Of a stretch of DNA of 31,837 nucleotides, positions 2,453 to 23,327 are shown one piece after another. Each line of letters starts with the position of its first letter. The stretch's first letter is position 1. The notes beneath the pieces are model-generated. The model searched no databases and was not told the origin of the DNA. It saw nothing but the letters and a program-made list of their open reading frames with translations. The translations under genes and the position numbers were made by a program. Source of the DNA: a virus; the IMG/VR virus record IMGVR_UViG_3300022752_000256, positions 1 through 31,837 of that record. One strand, given 5' to 3'.

Positions 2453-2599
2453 ATGAAATTGAATAAGATTGATTTCTCACTCATCGTTGAAGTTGTTGGC
2501 ATCAGCCTTGTTACTTCAGGGTTAGCAATGATTTCTTTGCCTGCCGCATTTATTGTTTTAGGTTCATTTCTAATATGGATTACAGAGAAGGCTAACTAA
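2453..2599 (+). CDS. Small single-span membrane protein between terL and portal
   Basis: 48 residues with one long hydrophobic stretch (about residues 9-42) containing a central Ser-Leu-Pro kink, and a short charged C-terminus. An AGGAG site lies 6 nt before the ATG at 2453; an ATG at 2447 is too close to it. The stop overlaps the portal start (TAATG), so the two are coupled. Comparable tiny membrane proteins (for example those grouped as DUF1056) occur between terminase and portal in other siphophages. I recall that pattern and could not check it. The function is unknown; anchoring head assembly at the membrane would be speculative. Confidence 0.7.
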   Translation: MKLNKIDFSLIVEVVGISLVTSGLAMISLPAAFIVLGSFLIWITEKAN

Positions 2600-3990
2600 T
2601 GAGTTTATCTAAGCGTTTAAGTGGGGCAAGCAATAAGCGAGCAATAAATTCTCAATATGTTGAGCCAATTATCCCTGGCCGCCCGCCAAGTCAATCAATG
2701 TCGGGTGTTGTCGTAGATGCTGATTCAGCTATCCGAATGGCAACAGTTTATTCTTGCGTTCGCTTGCTTTGCGATACCGTTTCATCGCTACCTGTTGGCG
2801 CTTATGTTCGCCGAGGTCGCAACCGTTTGCCTTACTCAGTTGTTTATGGCGAACAACCAACTTGGGTTTCAAAACCAAACCCTGAAACCACTCGCCTAGA
2901 ATTCTATGAGCAGATTGTTTCCTCATTCAAACTTGAGGGCAACGCTTACATTATGACCTTGCGCGATGATATGGGTGATATTCAAGAGCTTTGGGTTCTT
3001 GACCCACGCGATGTTCGCATTGAACGCCCAAATCCAAATGAACCTTTGGTTTATTATGTGAAGGCAAGAGATGCCCAAGGCATCTATGAGCAAAAATTAA
3101 GTGGCAAAGATGTTCTTCACATTCCTGAATTCCGTTTGCCGGGTCAGCGTTACGGTCTAAGCCCAATCGCCGCCTGCCGAACCACAATTGGTTCAGCTAT
3201 GGCTGCTGATACCTATGCTGCCTCATATTTCGGCAATGCTGCCAACCCCGGCGGTGTTATTGAAGTTCCCGGTGACTTAACCGAAGAACAGGCATCAGAT
3301 ATTGGGCGCGATTGGAATATCACTCACACAGGCCCTTATCGTGCGGGCAAGATTGGCATCCTTTCGGGCGGTGCGCAGTTCAAACCGCTGCAAATTAACG
3401 CCCAAGATGCACAATTATTGGACACTCGCCGTTTCTCAGTTGAGGAAATTGCTCGCATTTTCCGCGTTCCGCTTAGCCTTTTAGGTCATCCTGTTGCCGG
3501 TGCGATGTCATTTGCCTCAGTTGAAGCGCAGAATCTTTCATTTGTTCAGCACTCATTGCGCCCAATCTTGGAGCGAATTGAGCAAGCACTATCAACTTTG
3601 TTGCCTGAACCTGATGGTTTCATTCGATTTAACCTTGATGCGCTACTTCGTGGCACAACTCTTGAGCGTTATGATGCTTACACAAAGGGATTGCGTGAAG
3701 GTTTCTTGAGCTTAAACGATGTTCGCAGCATTGAGGATTTATCACCTGTTGAGTCAGGTGATCAGTACCGAGTGCCGCTACAAAACATTGATGCCGCCGA
3801 TGCCAAGGATGTTGGATTGAAGTTGCGAGCAGAAATTGCGGCGAACTTGATTCAAGTTGGCTTTGACCCATCCGCAGTTGCGATGGCAGTTGGCTTGCCT
3901 GATATGAAGCACACAGGTTTGCCTTCATCTCAGCTACAACAGATTTCAAGCATTGACCCTGCTGACCCATCATCGGCATATCCTGTCTAA
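2599..3990 (+). CDS. Portal protein (HK97 family)
   Basis: 463 residues, normal for HK97-type portals. The early segment around residues 44-70 (A-T-V-Y-S-C-V-R-L-L-C-D-T-V-S-S-L-P) is the classic portal signature. It is followed by a conserved W-V-L-D-P-R-D-V region and by the G-A-M-S-F-A-S-V-E segment with a long stem helix near 300. The protein forms the dodecameric ring at the capsid vertex through which DNA passes, and it nucleates prohead assembly. It overlaps the upstream small gene by 1 nt and the downstream protease gene by 1 nt (TAATG), so the block is tightly coupled. Confidence 0.96.
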   Translation: MSLSKRLSGASNKRAINSQYVEPIIPGRPPSQSMSGVVVDADSAIRMATVYSCVRLLCDTVSSLPVGAYVRRGRNRLPYSVVYGEQPTWVSKPNPETTRLEFYEQIVSSFKLEGNAYIMTLRDDMGDIQELWVLDPRDVRIERPNPNEPLVYYVKARDAQGIYEQKLSGKDVLHIPEFRLPGQRYGLSPIAACRTTIGSAMAADTYAASYFGNAANPGGVIEVPGDLTEEQASDIGRDWNITHTGPYRAGKIGILSGGAQFKPLQINAQDAQLLDTRRFSVEEIARIFRVPLSLLGHPVAGAMSFASVEAQNLSFVQHSLRPILERIEQALSTLLPEPDGFIRFNLDALLRGTTLERYDAYTKGLREGFLSLNDVRSIEDLSPVESGDQYRVPLQNIDAADAKDVGLKLRAEIAANLIQVGFDPSAVAMAVGLPDMKHTGLPSSQLQQISSIDPADPSSAYPV

Positions 3991-5894
3991 TGCCGTATTA
4001 CATTTCAGACAAAGAGAGCGATTGCGCAGGTTGGGCAACCGTTAAAAAGAATCCTGATGGTTCATTTGAAACTATTGGGTGCCACGATTCAAAGCAAGGC
4101 GCAGTTGATCAAATGGTTGCGGTTTCACTTGCCGAAGGAATTGAACCAATGGGCGAAGTTCGAGCAGTTGATTTAAGTGTTCCATCATTTATTCGTGAAA
4201 ATGCCAAGCGCGGTTTGAAATACCTTGATGAAGGTTTCGGTGGCGATGGTTTAACTGATGGCACAAAGCGAGAAGCGCGTGAATTAGCTGCCGGGCGTGT
4301 AACTGAAAACAAAGTTCGCAAAATGGCACCTTGGTTTGCTCGCCATAAAGTTGATGGGCAAGCGCCAAAGAATAATGACCCTTCAAATGCCCAATATCCT
4401 GGCGCGGGTTTAGTTGCTTGGTTACTTTGGGGTGGAGATTCTAATTTTAGCGATGCAACTCAGAATTGGGCACAACGCAAGATTGATGCTTTTGATGCTG
4501 AGCAAACTCGCAAGCGCGATTCAAACACCGTTGTTATTGTTGATGTGGATGGAACCGTGCTAAATGGCAGCGAGGGAATTCAAAAAAACATTGATTTTGT
4601 CAATGAACTTGGAAAAACAGATTTCATTCACATTGTCACAGGTCGCTTAGAATCTGATCGTGAAAAAACTGCCAATGATTTACACGCAGCAGGTTTGGTT
4701 TACAACGCCTTAACTTTGAACGATACAGATATGGCAAGCCCTGAATACAAAAAAGCAACAGCCGAGGAAATCCTCAAGACAAAAGAAATAAAGTTGGCAA
4801 TTGATAACGGGGAAAGTGCAAGGGCTGCTTATCAATCCCTTGGAATTAAAACAATGAATCCATCAAGCATTTCCGCAAGTGCTAATTCAAGGAGTAAAAT
4901 GAAAAAGATCGAGCGCCGCACCTTCACAGTTCGCGATGTTGAAGCAAGACAAGCAACCGATGGCACAATGCGCCTTTCTGGTTATGCCGCAGTTTTTAAT
5001 GAGGCAAGTGTTCCTCTACCATTCATTGAAACAATCGCCCCTGGCGCATTTCGCAAAACTTTAAGTGAAACCCCTGATGTAAGGTTGTTGATAAACCACG
5101 AAGGGTTGCCGGTGGCTAGAACCAAGAATGGCACCTTAACCCTTACCGAAGATGATCGCGGGTTGTATATGGATGCAATTATTGCCGATACAACTGAAGG
5201 TCGCGACCTTTACAAATTAGTTGAGCGTGGCGATGTTGATCAAATGAGTTTCGCCTTCCGCGTTATTCGTCAAAAATACAATGAAGATCGTTCGCAGCGA
5301 ACACTTACAGAACTTTCATTGGCAGATGGCGATGTATCGGTTGTAACCTATCCTGCCTATCCAACTACCTCAGTTGAGGCTCGTGAGGCGCTACGCAAAG
5401 CAATTGATGCAGTTAAAGAAGGCCGTGAAGTTACAGGCGAATCTTTGATTGTTTTGAAAACAATTTTTGATGACCTTTCTGAAGGTCACGATTACATAAT
5501 GAAAGCCGTTGAAATGATGGCAATAATGACAGGCGAAACTATGATGCCAAATGATCCTATGAGCGATTATTCAAGTCGTGAAGCAGTTGGTGATTTTGTG
5601 CGCTGGAACGCATCAGGTGGCATTGCTCGCGGTAAGATTGAGAAGATTCAAACAACAGGCGAGATCAATGTGCCAAATTCTAGTTTTTCAATTATGGCTG
5701 AAGAAGGTGACCCCGCAGTTTTGATTCGTGTTTACGAAGAAATCCGCGATGGTTATCGCCCAACAGATACTCTTGTTGGTCATAAAATGAGCGAACTAAC
5801 ACAGATTGACCCGCTGCCTGAACCATCACCTGAACAGGCAGCTCGCAAAATCTCACTTCGCCTTGCTAAGGCAATTGTAAACAACACAAAATAA
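3990..5894 (+). CDS. Prohead maturation protease fused to N-terminal phage domain and HAD-like phosphatase domain
   Basis: 634 residues, about three times a usual HK97 protease. Residues 1-60 resemble a short domain I associate with other phage head proteins (Y-Y-I-S ... C-A-G-W-A-V-type start, C-H-D-S-K). Residues 65-170 form a helical G-A-G-L-V-A-W-L-L-W-G-G-D domain. Residues 179-290 look like a HAD phosphatase: D185-x-D187-G-T, T217 in H-I-V-T-G-R, lysines 254/255, and D272-N. Residues 305-465 are the U35-type protease with H370, S420 and an acidic D448 before V-S-V-V. Residues 530-605 resemble a small Tudor/SH3-like domain (G-D-F-V-R-W-N ... V-G-H-K). The protease should process capsid delta domains in the prohead. 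The phosphatase role is unknown. Confidence 0.9.
   Translation: MPYYISDKESDCAGWATVKKNPDGSFETIGCHDSKQGAVDQMVAVSLAEGIEPMGEVRAVDLSVPSFIRENAKRGLKYLDEGFGGDGLTDGTKREARELAAGRVTENKVRKMAPWFARHKVDGQAPKNNDPSNAQYPGAGLVAWLLWGGDSNFSDATQNWAQRKIDAFDAEQTRKRDSNTVVIVDVDGTVLNGSEGIQKNIDFVNELGKTDFIHIVTGRLESDREKTANDLHAAGLVYNALTLNDTDMASPEYKKATAEEILKTKEIKLAIDNGESARAAYQSLGIKTMNPSSISASANSRSKMKKIERRTFTVRDVEARQATDGTMRLSGYAAVFNEASVPLPFIETIAPGAFRKTLSETPDVRLLINHEGLPVARTKNGTLTLTEDDRGLYMDAIIADTTEGRDLYKLVERGDVDQMSFAFRVIRQKYNEDRSQRTLTELSLADGDVSVVTYPAYPTTSVEAREALRKAIDAVKEGREVTGESLIVLKTIFDDLSEGHDYIMKAVEMMAIMTGETMMPNDPMSDYSSREAVGDFVRWNASGGIARGKIEKIQTTGEINVPNSSFSIMAEEGDPAVLIRVYEEIRDGYRPTDTLVGHKMSELTQIDPLPEPSPEQAARKISLRLAKAIVNNTK
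4889..4901 (+). promoter_or_regulatory. Internal ribosome binding site and in-frame ATG inside the protease gene
   Basis: AAGGAG, 4 nt, then ATG at 4899. The ATG is codon 304 of the 634-codon gene, exactly in frame and right before the protease domain begins. Translation from it would give a free 331-residue protease without the N-terminal and HAD-like domains. The site looks as good as the ribosome binding sites of separate genes in this genome. Use of the site is inference. Confidence 0.6.
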
Positions 5895-6007: not shown

Positions 6008-7351
6008 ATGTCATTTCTTGACAAAGTAATTGAGCGCCGTGATGCAGTTAAGGCTGAACTAGATGCAGTTCTTGAAGCGGTTGCCGCTGAAGAACGCACA
6101 GACTTAACCGCCGAGGAAACCGAAAAGGTTGATGCCTTGGTTGAAGAATCACGCTCACTAGATTCAAAGATTGAAAAATTCAATGCACAAGCAGTTGCAG
6201 ATGCAAAGGCATCTGAGGTTCGTGCTTCAGTTGCAGCAGTTGTTACACCTAAGGGTGGCGCAGTTGTTACACGCGAAGCTCGCACATACTCACCTGAGGC
6301 TGATGCTTCATTCGTTAAGGATGCTCTAGCAGCATCAACACGCAATGACTTCGCAGCCAATGAGCGCCTTGCTCGCCATATGCGCGAAGAATCAATCGAG
6401 CGCCGCGATGTCGGAACAGCTCAGTTTGATGGTCTAACAATTCCACAATACCTTGTTGATCTAGCAGCACCACTTGCTCGCGCAGGCCGCCCAACAGCGG
6501 ATTTCGCAACAAGCAAGCACACTCTGCCAGCAGCCGGAATGACCCTGAATATCAGCCGTATGACCACCGGGACTTCAACAGCCGTTCAGGTTACACAGAA
6601 TGATGCAGTTTCAGAAACAGATGCAGATGACACACTATTGACAATCAATGTGCGCACAATTGCAGGTCAGCAAGATATTTCAAAGCAGGCTATCGAGCGC
6701 GGAACAGGCATTGATTCATTCATCGTTGCCGATCTAATCCGTTCTTGGCACACAACACTTAACTCACAGATTCTTAACGGTGCAGGTACAGCAGGCACAA
6801 TCAAGGGAATCCGCAATTCAGGTGGAAATGCCATTACATTCACAGCAACAACACCAACAGTTGCGTTGCTATATCCAAAACTAGCTGATGCAATTGCGCA
6901 ATGTCAGGCAAATACATTCACATCACCAACTCACTTCATTATGCACCCACGCCGCCTTGCTTTCTTAATGGCAGGCGTAGATGGTTCAAACCGCCCATTA
7001 GTAGTTCCTCAAGCTAATGGCGCAATGAACGCAGTTGGCGTTGGCACTGGCAATTCTCAGTACGGCAACAGCGGCTATCAGATGCTTGGACTTCCAATCA
7101 TCACAGATGCTTCAGTTGGTACAACTTATGGCGCTGCAACAAACCAAGATGAAATCTATTGCGTTGCTGCACCTGAAATGCACCTTTGGGAACAACCTGG
7201 CTCACCATTCGCATTGTCATTCGATGCTACTGGCGCAGGCAATCTCACAGTTAAGTCAGTTGTTTACGGCTACGCAGCGTTTTCTGCTGAGCGTTACGCA
7301 CTTGCTGCTTCGATCATTTCGGGCACAGGTTTAGTGGCACCAACCTTCTAA
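6008..7351 (+). CDS. Major capsid protein with N-terminal delta domain (HK97 fold)
   Basis: 447 residues. Residues 1-70 are a charged coiled coil (E-R-R-D-A-V-K-A-E-L and repeats of Glu, Lys and Ala), the scaffolding delta domain normally removed by the upstream protease. A low-complexity linker follows to about residue 130. The rest matches the HK97 capsid family: a substrate-like A-D-F-A-T-S-K-H-T-L-P segment, T-I-A-G-Q-Q-D-I-S-K-Q-A, the L-I-R-S-W-H-T-T-L-N-S-Q-I-L-N-G-A-G spine helix region, and a conserved C-terminal V-K-S-V-V-Y-G-Y. The strong site AAGGAG precedes the ATG. The gene has its own leader and is followed by a large hairpin, consistent with separate high expression. Confidence 0.95.
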   Translation: MSFLDKVIERRDAVKAELDAVLEAVAAEERTDLTAEETEKVDALVEESRSLDSKIEKFNAQAVADAKASEVRASVAAVVTPKGGAVVTREARTYSPEADASFVKDALAASTRNDFAANERLARHMREESIERRDVGTAQFDGLTIPQYLVDLAAPLARAGRPTADFATSKHTLPAAGMTLNISRMTTGTSTAVQVTQNDAVSETDADDTLLTINVRTIAGQQDISKQAIERGTGIDSFIVADLIRSWHTTLNSQILNGAGTAGTIKGIRNSGGNAITFTATTPTVALLYPKLADAIAQCQANTFTSPTHFIMHPRRLAFLMAGVDGSNRPLVVPQANGAMNAVGVGTGNSQYGNSGYQMLGLPIITDASVGTTYGAATNQDEIYCVAAPEMHLWEQPGSPFALSFDATGAGNLTVKSVVYGYAAFSAERYALAASIISGTGLVAPTF

Positions 7352-7437: not shown

Positions 7438-8121
7438 ATGAAGTCAGCTCACAAAGTTTCAATCGGTAGTTGCGACCCTGGCACCGTCAATGGTGCCTTT
7501 GCTTATCGCCTTATTCAATTAGCGCAAGCAAGGTCAGCAAGACTTGGCCCATTTGTTCGGGTTAAAGGTTCAGGGTTATTATCAAAACAACGCAACCGCG
7601 TTGTAAAGCAATTCTTAGATGGCACAAAGTCTGATTGGTTATTGCTAATTGATAGTGATGAACAATTGACATTGGAAGCATTTGATAAGTTGCTTGAAAC
7701 TGCTCACGATAAAGAACGCCCTGTCGTGGCAGGTTTAGTTTTTGCAGGATTTGGAATTGAAGGCGCACCGTATCCAAAACCGGTGCCTGCTATCTTCCAA
7801 GATGCACCCGAAGGTTTTTTGCCTTTGTATAAGTACGATAAAGATTCAGTTTTTGAAATTGATGCTGCGGGAACAGGTTGCTTACTTATCCATCGCAGCG
7901 TGTTAGAAAAAATGCGCGAAACCGCAGATAAAAACCAAGGCACGGATTGGTGTTGGTTTTGGGATGGCCCTATTGATGGCAATTGGATTGGTGAAGATTT
8001 ACTTTTCTGCCGTAGAATTAGGGCGCTAGGTTTTCCAATTTATGTAAACACAGGCGCAATTTTGCCGCATCAAAAGTCTTATTGGTTAGATGAACGGCAC
8101 CATCAATTATGGAAAGATTGA
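7438..8121 (+). CDS. Glycosyltransferase-like protein (GT-A fold), head region
   Basis: 227 residues. L-L-L-I-D-S-D-E (D72-x-D74) is a GT-A type DxD motif for metal and nucleotide-sugar binding. A later G-E-D-L-L-F-C-R-R segment and a C-terminal I-L-P-H-Q-K motif resemble the acidic base and metal-binding histidine regions of family 2-like transferases. A GGGGGA site precedes the ATG. Its position between capsid and head-tail adaptor genes suggests a virion component may be glycosylated, but cell-surface targets are possible. No signal peptide or membrane span is present, so it acts in the cytoplasm. Family assignment is fairly safe; substrate unknown. Confidence 0.78.
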   Translation: MKSAHKVSIGSCDPGTVNGAFAYRLIQLAQARSARLGPFVRVKGSGLLSKQRNRVVKQFLDGTKSDWLLLIDSDEQLTLEAFDKLLETAHDKERPVVAGLVFAGFGIEGAPYPKPVPAIFQDAPEGFLPLYKYDKDSVFEIDAAGTGCLLIHRSVLEKMRETADKNQGTDWCWFWDGPIDGNWIGEDLLFCRRIRALGFPIYVNTGAILPHQKSYWLDERHHQLWKD

Positions 8122-20028: not shown

Positions 20029-20683
20029 ACTTCTTGTTCTAGTTCCTACACGCGGGCGGCCTCATAATGCGCAGGCGTTGCGCGATGCCTTTAATGACAC
20101 TCAAGCAACTGCCGATTTATTATTTGTTATTGATAAAGATGACCCTGAGTTTGCGGGTTACGATGTCACCGATATTGATTACATCTTAATTGAGAACACC
20201 ACTCGCGGGATGGCTTACCCGCTAAATGAAGTGGCGAAAGAATACGCCGAGCATTACAAATACCTTTGTTTTATGGGCGATGATCACAGGCCAAGAACCC
20301 ACAAATGGGATGACAAGTTGATCAGCAAACTTCAAGATGCCCCTGCCCTTGCCTACGGCAATGACCTTTTCCAAGGTCAGAGCTTGCCAACAATGGTTGC
20401 AATGACTTCGGATATTGTCACCGCCCTTGGCGGGATGGTGCCGCCGAATATGCGCCACCTTTATCTTGACAATTTTTGGCTACGCCTTGGAAATGATTTG
20501 GGCAAGATTACCTATTGCCCTGAAATCATTATTGAGCATTGCCACCCGCTAATTGGTAAAGCTGAGATGGATGAAGGTTACAAAACCGTAAATGCCGCTG
20601 AGGTTTACACCGCAGACAGAGATGCCTTCAACAACTTCATCAGTTCTCTTATGTATAAGCAACTTCTTGAGGCGCTTAGATGA
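20018..20683 (+). CDS. Glycosyltransferase-like protein (GT-A fold), second copy
   Basis: 221 residues. I chose the GTG at 20018, with GGGGAG upstream, giving M-K-D-K-L-L-V-L-V-P-T-R-G-R-P. The start V-P-T-R-G-R-P resembles nucleotide-sugar-binding openings of GT-A proteins. F-M-G-D-D-H-R-P-R-T (D88-D89) is the likely metal-binding motif, and a late I-I-E-H-C-H-P has a possible metal-binding histidine. It is not close to the glycosyltransferase at 7438. Its coupling to an epimerase gene (ATGA overlap) suggests the two act on one sugar nucleotide. Target may be host surface glycans, DNA or virion protein. Confidence 0.7.
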   Translation: MKDKLLVLVPTRGRPHNAQALRDAFNDTQATADLLFVIDKDDPEFAGYDVTDIDYILIENTTRGMAYPLNEVAKEYAEHYKYLCFMGDDHRPRTHKWDDKLISKLQDAPALAYGNDLFQGQSLPTMVAMTSDIVTALGGMVPPNMRHLYLDNFWLRLGNDLGKITYCPEIIIEHCHPLIGKAEMDEGYKTVNAAEVYTADRDAFNNFISSLMYKQLLEALR

Positions 20684-21540
20684 AGATTCTGATTACCGGC
20701 AACGCGGGTTTTGTAGGTCGCGCTTATCACCGCGCCTTTGGCGATCAACACGATATAACAGGAATTGACATTGCCAACGGCATTGATGCCCGCGATTTCT
20801 TTGCTAAAGATGACACACACTTTGACCTTGTTATTCACCTTGCAGCAGTAGTCGGCGGCAGAGCCACCATCGAAGGTAATCCCTTGGCAGTTGCCACCGA
20901 CCTTGCAATTGATAGTGATCTCTTTCAATGGGCGCTACGAACTCGCCCTGACAGAATCATTTATTATTCTTCATCGGCTGCTTATCCTGTTTATTTACAA
21001 ACAGGTGAAATGCCAATTATGTTAGAAGAAAAAGACATTGATTTGAGCCAAATCCGCACTCCCGATTTCAGCTACGGTTGGGCAAAACTATCGGGTGAGA
21101 TGTTGGCAATGTATGCAAGGCGCGAAGGGTTAAAGGTCACGATCTTGCGCCCGTTTAGTGGCTATGGTCAAGACCAAGATTTAGATTACCCTTTCCCGTC
21201 ATTTGTCAGCCGTTGTTGGAACCAAGAAAAAGAGTTTAAGATTTGGGGCAGCGGCAGGCAGGTTCGAGATTTCATCCATATTGACGATGTGGTTGAGGGC
21301 AGTTTAGTAGCTGCGCAAAATGATGTTGAAGTTATTAACCTTTGTTCAGGCGTTCCCGTGAGTTTTATTGAACTTGCTGAGATGATGATGGATATTAGCG
21401 GGCATCGGGTGCCGATTGTGACCGATGAAACCAAACCTGTTGGTGTAATGTTCCGAGTTGGCGACCCAACTAATATGCTCAAAGTGTTTACGCCAAAGAT
21501 TTCGCTTGAAGAAGGAATTGCTCGAAGTTTTCAGATTTAG
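20680..21540 (+). CDS. NAD-dependent sugar-nucleotide epimerase/dehydratase (extended SDR)
   Basis: 286 residues. Rossmann start I-T-G-N-A-G-F-V-G (GxxGxxG, residues 7-13), D30 for NAD(H), L-A-A-V-V-G-G, Y-Y-S-S-S-A-A-Y-P and the catalytic Y132-G-W-A-K136 place it in the extended short-chain dehydrogenases that epimerise or dehydrate nucleotide sugars. The R-D-F-I-H-I-D-D-V segment is typical of UDP-glucose 4-epimerase and GDP-fucose-synthase-like enzymes. It should act with the preceding glycosyltransferase. It ends the rightward structural/lysis block, directly before a strong terminator. Confidence 0.88.
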   Translation: MKILITGNAGFVGRAYHRAFGDQHDITGIDIANGIDARDFFAKDDTHFDLVIHLAAVVGGRATIEGNPLAVATDLAIDSDLFQWALRTRPDRIIYYSSSAAYPVYLQTGEMPIMLEEKDIDLSQIRTPDFSYGWAKLSGEMLAMYARREGLKVTILRPFSGYGQDQDLDYPFPSFVSRCWNQEKEFKIWGSGRQVRDFIHIDDVVEGSLVAAQNDVEVINLCSGVPVSFIELAEMMMDISGHRVPIVTDETKPVGVMFRVGDPTNMLKVFTPKISLEEGIARSFQI

Positions 21541-22645: not shown

Positions 22646-22669
22646 TGTCTAGACATAGATGTCAAGACA
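22646..22669. promoter_or_regulatory. Twin palindromic operator and leftward -35 element
   Basis: TGTCTAGACA (22646-22655) is a perfect palindrome, and TGTCAAGACA (22660-22669) repeats the TGTC-N2-GACA core, with centres 14 bp apart. On the minus strand the second copy contains TTGACA, a perfect -35 box for the leftward block; a matching -10 about 17 bp further is only weak (ACTAAG). Overlap of repeats with a -35 box is the usual layout of a repressor site. Confidence 0.6.
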
Positions 22670-22741
22670 CGCAGACAAATTAAGGGCAATTTTCCGCCTG
22701 CCCCCGCCTGTTACCCACCCCACAAATACCCCTCAAGCGGG

Positions 22742-22747
22742 TAGAAT
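22742..22747 (+). promoter_or_regulatory. -10 element placed for leaderless transcription of the Ntn hydrolase gene
   Basis: TAGAAT lies 7 bp before the ATG at 22755, so transcription would begin at or next to the start codon. The gene has no clear ribosome binding site, which agrees with a leaderless mRNA, common in Actinobacteria. No convincing -35 was seen upstream. Confidence 0.5.
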
Positions 22748-22754
22748 TGCCCCT

Positions 22755-23327
22755 ATGACCACGATTGCAGGCTACCAAGGCAAAGGCTTTGCCATCCTTG
22801 GAGCTGACAGTCAAATCACCGATGGTGACAAACGCATCATTTCGCCTTCAACGCCAAAAATCATCAAGGTAGGCAAGTACCTCTTGGGTGTCTGCGGAGA
22901 TTGCCGCCCCGGTGATGTGCTTATGTATAATTGGAAACCGCCTGCCTACGATGGCACCGACCCCGTAATGTTTATGGGTCGAAAGGTGATTCCAAGCATT
23001 ATCAAGGCGTTCAAAGACAATGGCTACGATTACCAAAAAGAAGGCGCGAGCTTTGCCTACTTGCTCGCCTTCAATGGCAACATCTTTGAAATTGGCAATG
23101 ATCTAGGAATCTCGCAATCAATAGACTTCACCTACGGCATTGGGTCGGGTAGCGCCTACGCCCTTGGCTACCTAACTTCAATGGCAGATGTTTATGGCGA
23201 GGCAACAGGGGAAACACTAAACATTGACACCGCAAGCAACGCGATCAAATCTGCCCTTGAACTTTCAGCTAAGTTTGATGTGAATACAGGCGCACCATTT
23301 CAGGTGGAGATTCAATTTAGCCGTTAG
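22755..23327 (+). CDS. Proteasome/HslV-like Ntn hydrolase
   Basis: 190 residues. M-T-T-I-A-G-Y followed by F-A-I-L-G-A-D18-S-Q and S-P-S-T-P-K35-I resembles proteasome beta and HslV subunits, where the Thr after Met becomes the nucleophile and Asp17/Lys33 complete the site. G-V-C-G-D-C-R-P-G-D matches the later conserved glycine turn. The ATG at 22755 puts the Thr pair at the N-terminus and has a -10 box 7 bp upstream; an in-frame ATG at 22659 would bury the Thr. It opens the rightward early block, facing away from the minus block. The function may be proteolysis or another N-terminal hydrolase task; unknown. Confidence 0.78.
   Translation: MTTIAGYQGKGFAILGADSQITDGDKRIISPSTPKIIKVGKYLLGVCGDCRPGDVLMYNWKPPAYDGTDPVMFMGRKVIPSIIKAFKDNGYDYQKEGASFAYLLAFNGNIFEIGNDLGISQSIDFTYGIGSGSAYALGYLTSMADVYGEATGETLNIDTASNAIKSALELSAKFDVNTGAPFQVEIQFSR

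Follow-up and report, generated by a model that had tools for sequence, protein, structure and literature searches.

Organization of the portal-protease-capsid locus

The window analysed here, that is, the whole stretch of 31,837 bases, is a complete virus record of a phage that belongs to an environmental group with probable actinobacterial hosts. Between the portal gene on its 5′ side and the major capsid gene on its 3′ side lies a stop-free open reading frame for a prohead protease with a long N-terminal extension (Table 1), the limits of which had been given exactly in an earlier note on this DNA. The TAA stop codon of the portal gene overlaps the initiating ATG (3990-3992) by a single base, and the Shine-Dalgarno sequence ahead of this ATG is not strong (duplex -1.7 kcal/mol), so that translation of the long form is probably coupled to that of the portal gene. 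What the earlier note had described as one N-terminal phage domain is indeed present but comprises two separate modules, N1 and N2; the C-terminal Hva1_TUDOR domain, the internal start codon with its Shine-Dalgarno sequence and the shuffling of the N-terminal cassette described below had been overlooked.

Table 1. Features of the portal-protease-capsid locus (positions in the window).
Feature	Position	Strand	Remarks
Portal gene	2599-3990	+	TAA stop at 3988-3990
Long form, N1-N2-HAD-S78 protease-TUDOR-C-tail	3990-5894	+	634 aa; ORF and domain searches
Module N1	3990-4160	+	residues 1-57
Module N2	4161-4499	+	residues 58-170 (start and end approximate); helical; phrog_2859
HAD module	4515-4877	+	residues about 176-296; D185, D187, G188, T189, T217, G218, R219, K254, D272
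Internal Shine-Dalgarno sequence, AAGGAG	4889-4894	+	4 nt 5′ of ATG 4899
Predicted short form, plain protease from Met304	4899-5894	+	331 aa
S78 prohead protease domain	4941-5387	+	residues 318-466
Hva1_TUDOR domain	5589-5729	+	residues 534-580; Pfam
Conserved C-terminal peptide ISLRLAKAIVNNTK	5850-5891	+	
HK97-type major capsid protein gene	6008-7351	+	N-terminal scaffold-like region; AAGGAG ribosome site, duplex -7.1

The protease part was identified in profile searches: the Pfam Peptidase_S78 match has an E-value of 9e-42, the scores against PF04586 and TIGR01543 are 143 and 112 bits (cut-offs 21 and 59, respectively), and the head maturation protease family phrog_80 was matched in PHROGs. 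His370 and Ser420, which we take to be the catalytic residues from what is known of the family, are invariant in 81 of 81 sequences. The TUDOR domain is found in some relatives and absent from others, whereas the C-terminal peptide stays in place and is retained although the stretch preceding it varies, which makes it a candidate encapsidation signal. Two relatives depart from the common layout, namely L044 with an internal deletion within the protease domain (1002-1415) and L023 with a frame break that separates N2 from the protease (3600-4072); either may be an assembly error or real.

Elsewhere in the window, the capsid gene is immediately followed by one for a GT2-like glycosyltransferase (7438-8121), and positions 20680-21540 encode a nucleotide-sugar epimerase; glycosyltransferase genes likewise follow the capsid gene of the Pontimonas phage phiPsal1, and glycosylation of the capsid in the window phage is possible. 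The same genome also encodes a proteasome/HslV-like peptidase (22659-23327; Pfam Proteasome, E = 8e-7; phrog_1040, E = 2.5e-25).

A conserved, probable HAD phosphatase domain resembling T4 Pnkp in its predicted fold

A profile-led search of IMG/VR for homologues of the HAD domain yielded 80 loci; HAD peptides served as seeds, and one contig is represented by more than one locus in several cases. D185, D187, T189, T217, G218, R219 and K254 do not vary among the 56 distinct homologues, and D272 is kept in 55 of them. The HAD motif set proposed in the earlier note was accordingly placed right for D185, D187, G188, T189, T217 and D272, and no homologue lacks the DxD or the T motif; of the two lysines listed there, K254 is the catalytic one, whereas K255 is not conserved and is a Gly in many homologues. 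The catalytic set is kept across 40%-95% identity and the dN/dS of the module lies between 0.09 and 0.14, indicative of purifying selection. This number of distinct homologues and the selection acting on them indicate that the HAD-protease fusion is not due to chance. We rejected a degenerate HAD domain in view of the conservation, and an assembly or sequencing error behind the fusion in view of the recurrence of the same fusion across many independent contigs.

Assignment within the HAD superfamily was less straightforward at the sequence level. The Pfam class IIIB family Acid_phosphat_B was matched weakly, albeit above the cut-off, over residues 199-269 (E = 1e-6), HAD_PNKP reached an E-value of only 0.39, and the polynucleotide kinase family phrog_415 in PHROGs was matched over residues 172-302 (E = 2e-10 with the excised domain). 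Sequence searches of the PDB returned only weak HAD matches, and a fold search was required. The AlphaFold2 model built from 16 sequences (mean pLDDT 91.5) is a capless, Rossmannoid alternation of strands and helices, in agreement with the HAD assignment of the earlier note, and the best solved structures retrieved by Foldseek were those of the 3′-phosphatase of T4 Pnkp (1rrc, E = 8e-6, TM-score 0.77 relative to the query; 5uj0); Nir2 ranked next, and lipin-type HADs came lower down. Alignment by hhalign with the T4 Pnkp sequence, obtained by translating the T4 record, gave an E-value of 5e-7 and a probability of 92.5 for what is a remote match, at about 17%-20% identity.

Sequence motifs, predicted fold and conservation thus argue that the HAD domain upstream of the protease is probably an active phosphatase, as the earlier note had expected from its DxD motif. 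Since both the nearest fold and the profile match point to the T4 Pnkp 3′-phosphatase, action on nucleic-acid ends, also raised in the earlier note, receives moderate support, and a polynucleotide is our leading guess for the substrate. The DxDGT, [ST]GR, Lys and D[DN] motifs of the two proteins correspond, but the domain described here is shorter, lacks a kinase domain and has no invariant counterpart of Arg176 and Asp254 of T4 Pnkp, which are required for 3′-phosphatase activity. A tblastn search of the phages collection with the HAD domain alone gave no match; likewise, none of the 91 pattern matches in bacterial and archaeal genomes proved to be a relative, so that no host enzyme was found as the source of the domain.

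A probable internal start within the protease gene

Met304 (position 4899) is preceded by tcAAGGAGtaaaATG, and the corresponding nucleotide element, [A/G]GGAG-N4-ATG/GTG, is present in 21 of 21 distinct versions found. It is kept whatever precedes it, be it HAD, N2, N1 or no module at all as in unfused phages; in two of the relatives, L007 and L008, it is the sole start of the protease. The Arg codon of the element is AGG in all 15 distinct fused versions, a choice made for only 3 of the 1391 Arg codons of the protease domains, and in L086, where Ser is replaced by Arg at the element, the AGGAG bases are intact. No equally strong site precedes any of the 92 further internal in-frame ATGs in the window genes sampled, and the ribosome site of the capsid gene is likewise AAGGAG.

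On this evidence, the protease very probably also starts by itself at Met304. The fusion reported in the earlier note is real, but it does not describe the whole output of the locus: because the internal element is preserved in all versions found, including those of unfused phages, the gene is probably nested, one frame yielding the HAD-protease as its long product and the plain protease as its short one. A distant HAD-bearing clade (L089-L105 and relatives) possesses the Met at the protease start, whereas a strong Shine-Dalgarno sequence is absent; a universal nested start is thereby ruled out, and we limit this arrangement to the clade of the window. In addition, N1 is preceded by a good ribosome site in some relatives, so that a low level of the long form cannot be general.

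An exchangeable cassette of modules upstream of the protease

Searches with module HMMs built from the loci themselves revealed that N1, N2, HAD, a further module, N3, and a short Cys module are combined upstream of the protease in more than 10 orders. N1, where present, is always first and also constitutes the N-terminus of phrog_80, the core of N3 matches DUF5824, and the Cys module shows a weak match to HiPIP; N2 has structural matches among portal, XkdF and prohead-protease proteins as well as capsid-annotated ones (BFVD). The HAD-protease fusion emphasized in the earlier note is therefore but one of the arrangements encountered, the HAD domain being one of several interchangeable modules that is missing in many relatives and forms part of a separate protein in some. 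For instance, there are close relatives without HAD, without N2 or without any module. Similarly, phiPsal1 carries N1, the Cys module, N2 and the protease in a single protein annotated as 'prohead protease'. Structure databases already contain 'prohead protease' entries with a HAD domain from uncultured phages, and we found no description of the fusion for them.

The distribution of HAD along the protease tree is patchy, requiring nine changes, of which at least seven are forced by well-supported branches; judging from this tree, the domain is gained or lost several times, and three of the 'losses' correspond to loci in which HAD is encoded in a separate ORF. Such separate ORFs for a HAD-containing module protein, ending just 5′ of the protease gene, occur in L124, L110, L116 and L146, and fusion is thus not required for the function of the modules. 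With the exception of L153-L158 and L160, all HAD relatives found lie upstream of a protease or in ORFs cut by the end of a contig. L153-L158 encode a HAD relative that stands alone, two of the contigs concerned being >200 kb long, whereas the L160 ORF (2-931) comprises an N2-like domain, HAD and a C-terminal Cys motif, without a protease domain, and its distantly related HAD has Glu in place of the motif-IV Asp.

Comparison of the window with its relative L006 points to the mode of exchange. Nucleotide identity is 98% in N1 and 94% in HAD, as opposed to 79% in the protease, and declines from the start codon on, for which reason the modules appear to have been swapped in blocks that reach roughly to the internal start. 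Nearly all modules, be it N2, HAD, N3, Cys or the protease, have an Arg residue at their start or immediately ahead of it (e.g. L090, L133 and L140), and an invariant Arg also precedes the capsid N-arm. The recurrent Arg, the sole basis for considering cleavage between modules, might mark prohead-protease sites with a preference shared with the capsid N-arm; it is only suggestive, because the ERR motif probably contributes to the first strand of the protease fold as well.

Discussion

HAD phosphatases and prohead proteases are both known families; what sets this locus apart is that it joins the two and adds a probable nested start and modules that can be swapped. It resembles the HK97-family prohead proteases (S78, TIGR01543) in the protease domain, the catalytic His and Ser and the portal-protease-capsid gene order, but differs from them in about 300 additional N-terminal residues organized into exchangeable modules and in the TUDOR domain on the C-terminal side. 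The predicted use of one frame for two head-assembly products of different length parallels the C and Nu3 genes of phage lambda, nested in-frame head genes in which internal initiation yields a short product, the scaffold, alongside the long one; in the present case, by contrast, the short product would be the protease and the part restricted to the long product would consist of cargo-like modules. The closest conceptual precedent is provided by polyvalent proteins, multidomain phage proteins for most of which packaging and injection are predictions; their assemblin-like peptidase invariably lies at the C-terminus and is proposed to take part in processing during virion assembly (Iyer et al. 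2017; PMC5512222). As in those proteins, disparate domains are shuffled within one polypeptide with a peptidase of the prohead-protease superfamily on the C-terminal side; unlike in them, it is the S78 head-maturation protease itself that serves as the peptidase, in its usual place between the portal and capsid genes and with its own internal start, and it is followed by TUDOR and a short tail rather than being strictly C-terminal. The terms 'phosphatase' and 'haloacid' are absent from the main text of that study. Head-associated domains joined to variable effector domains are also encountered among MuF-fused phage effectors and polymorphic toxins, as outlined in PMC5576092 and PMC5512222, but MuF is a different family, and the variable part here is N-terminal and attached to the protease. 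No prohead protease with a HAD domain was found in the literature searched, which includes few subscription journals, and we consider the arrangement a new variation on the polyvalent-protein idea.

The HK97-like protease is located inside the prohead (Prohead 1 of HK97 contains about 60 copies of the protease versus 12 of the portal protein; PMC12749128), and an N-terminal cassette fused to it would enter the prohead as well. For this reason, and given the polyvalent-protein precedent, we read the locus as a protease with cargo. On balance, we lean towards a nested in-frame pair in which the long form represents HAD cargo that is packaged with the protease and acts at injection or early in infection. 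The long product, carrying N1, N2 and the PNKP-like HAD phosphatase N-terminal to the prohead protease, would probably be made in small amounts through translational coupling to the portal gene, whereas the short product from Met304, with its strong internal ribosome site, would be the plain protease, the supply of which the internal start would protect. The protease part would bring the long form into the prohead, a step that we regard as plausible; inside, the cargo modules may be freed by proteolysis or left attached and, in either case, retained in the particle. We infer that the modules would then act at injection or early in infection, with HAD most likely dephosphorylating a nucleic-acid end or a nucleotide. 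A more elaborate version, which we advance only tentatively, casts the protease as a modular cargo loader: the internal start would set the ratio of plain to cargo-bearing protease, recombination at this point would swap modules in frame, and the protease would both carry the cargo and cut it free, delivering a Pnkp-like end-repair phosphatase to the next host.

The locus can also be read without cargo. Its position between the portal and capsid genes and the N2-like domains of portal, XkdF and capsid-annotated proteins (BFVD matches) would equally suit N-terminal modules that serve as assembly or chaperone domains, for example, in portal-vertex or scaffold contacts, with HAD in a structural or regulatory role, and that accompany the protease into the prohead only to be destroyed at maturation; in the HK97-like phage D3, the protease is present in Prohead 1 and absent from the cleaved Prohead 2 (PMC12749128). 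Yet a structural HAD would have no need of the catalytic residues kept in 55-56 of 56 distinct copies, and close relatives missing HAD, N2 or all modules imply that none of these is essential for assembly, which renders this explanation rather unlikely in our estimation.

Alternatively, HAD might work in the cytoplasm late in infection, dephosphorylating nucleotides or RNA ends, with a fusion that is incidental and tolerated through the protease's own start. The strength and independence of that start, the stand-alone relatives L153-L158, some of them on very large contigs, and, somewhat, the separate module proteins of L124, L110, L116 and L146 all speak for such a role. If so, a stop codon at the junction would be cost-free, yet the frame there is open in 15 of 15 distinct fused versions from the window clade, and, L153-L158 and L160 excepted, the relatives otherwise stay upstream of a protease or in ORFs truncated by contig ends; we therefore hold a purely cytoplasmic function to be improbable. 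Least credible is a decayed or decorative, non-enzymatic HAD: the substituted motif-IV Asp of the distant relative L160 and the weak PDB sequence matches could be taken as signs of decay, but a catalytic set kept down to 40% identity, at a dN/dS of about 0.1, makes this highly improbable.

If the cargo reading is true, a standard and essential capsid enzyme would double as a loading device for virion-carried effectors in environmental, probably actinobacterial phages, and the swapped modules would amount to a readable catalogue of proteins likely to travel as virion cargo. In that case, the conserved internal start would offer a simple and testable account of how large protease fusions may exist without loss of normal assembly. 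Finally, the automatic label 'prohead protease' on a long ORF such as this one masks both the probable nested gene and its putative cargo.
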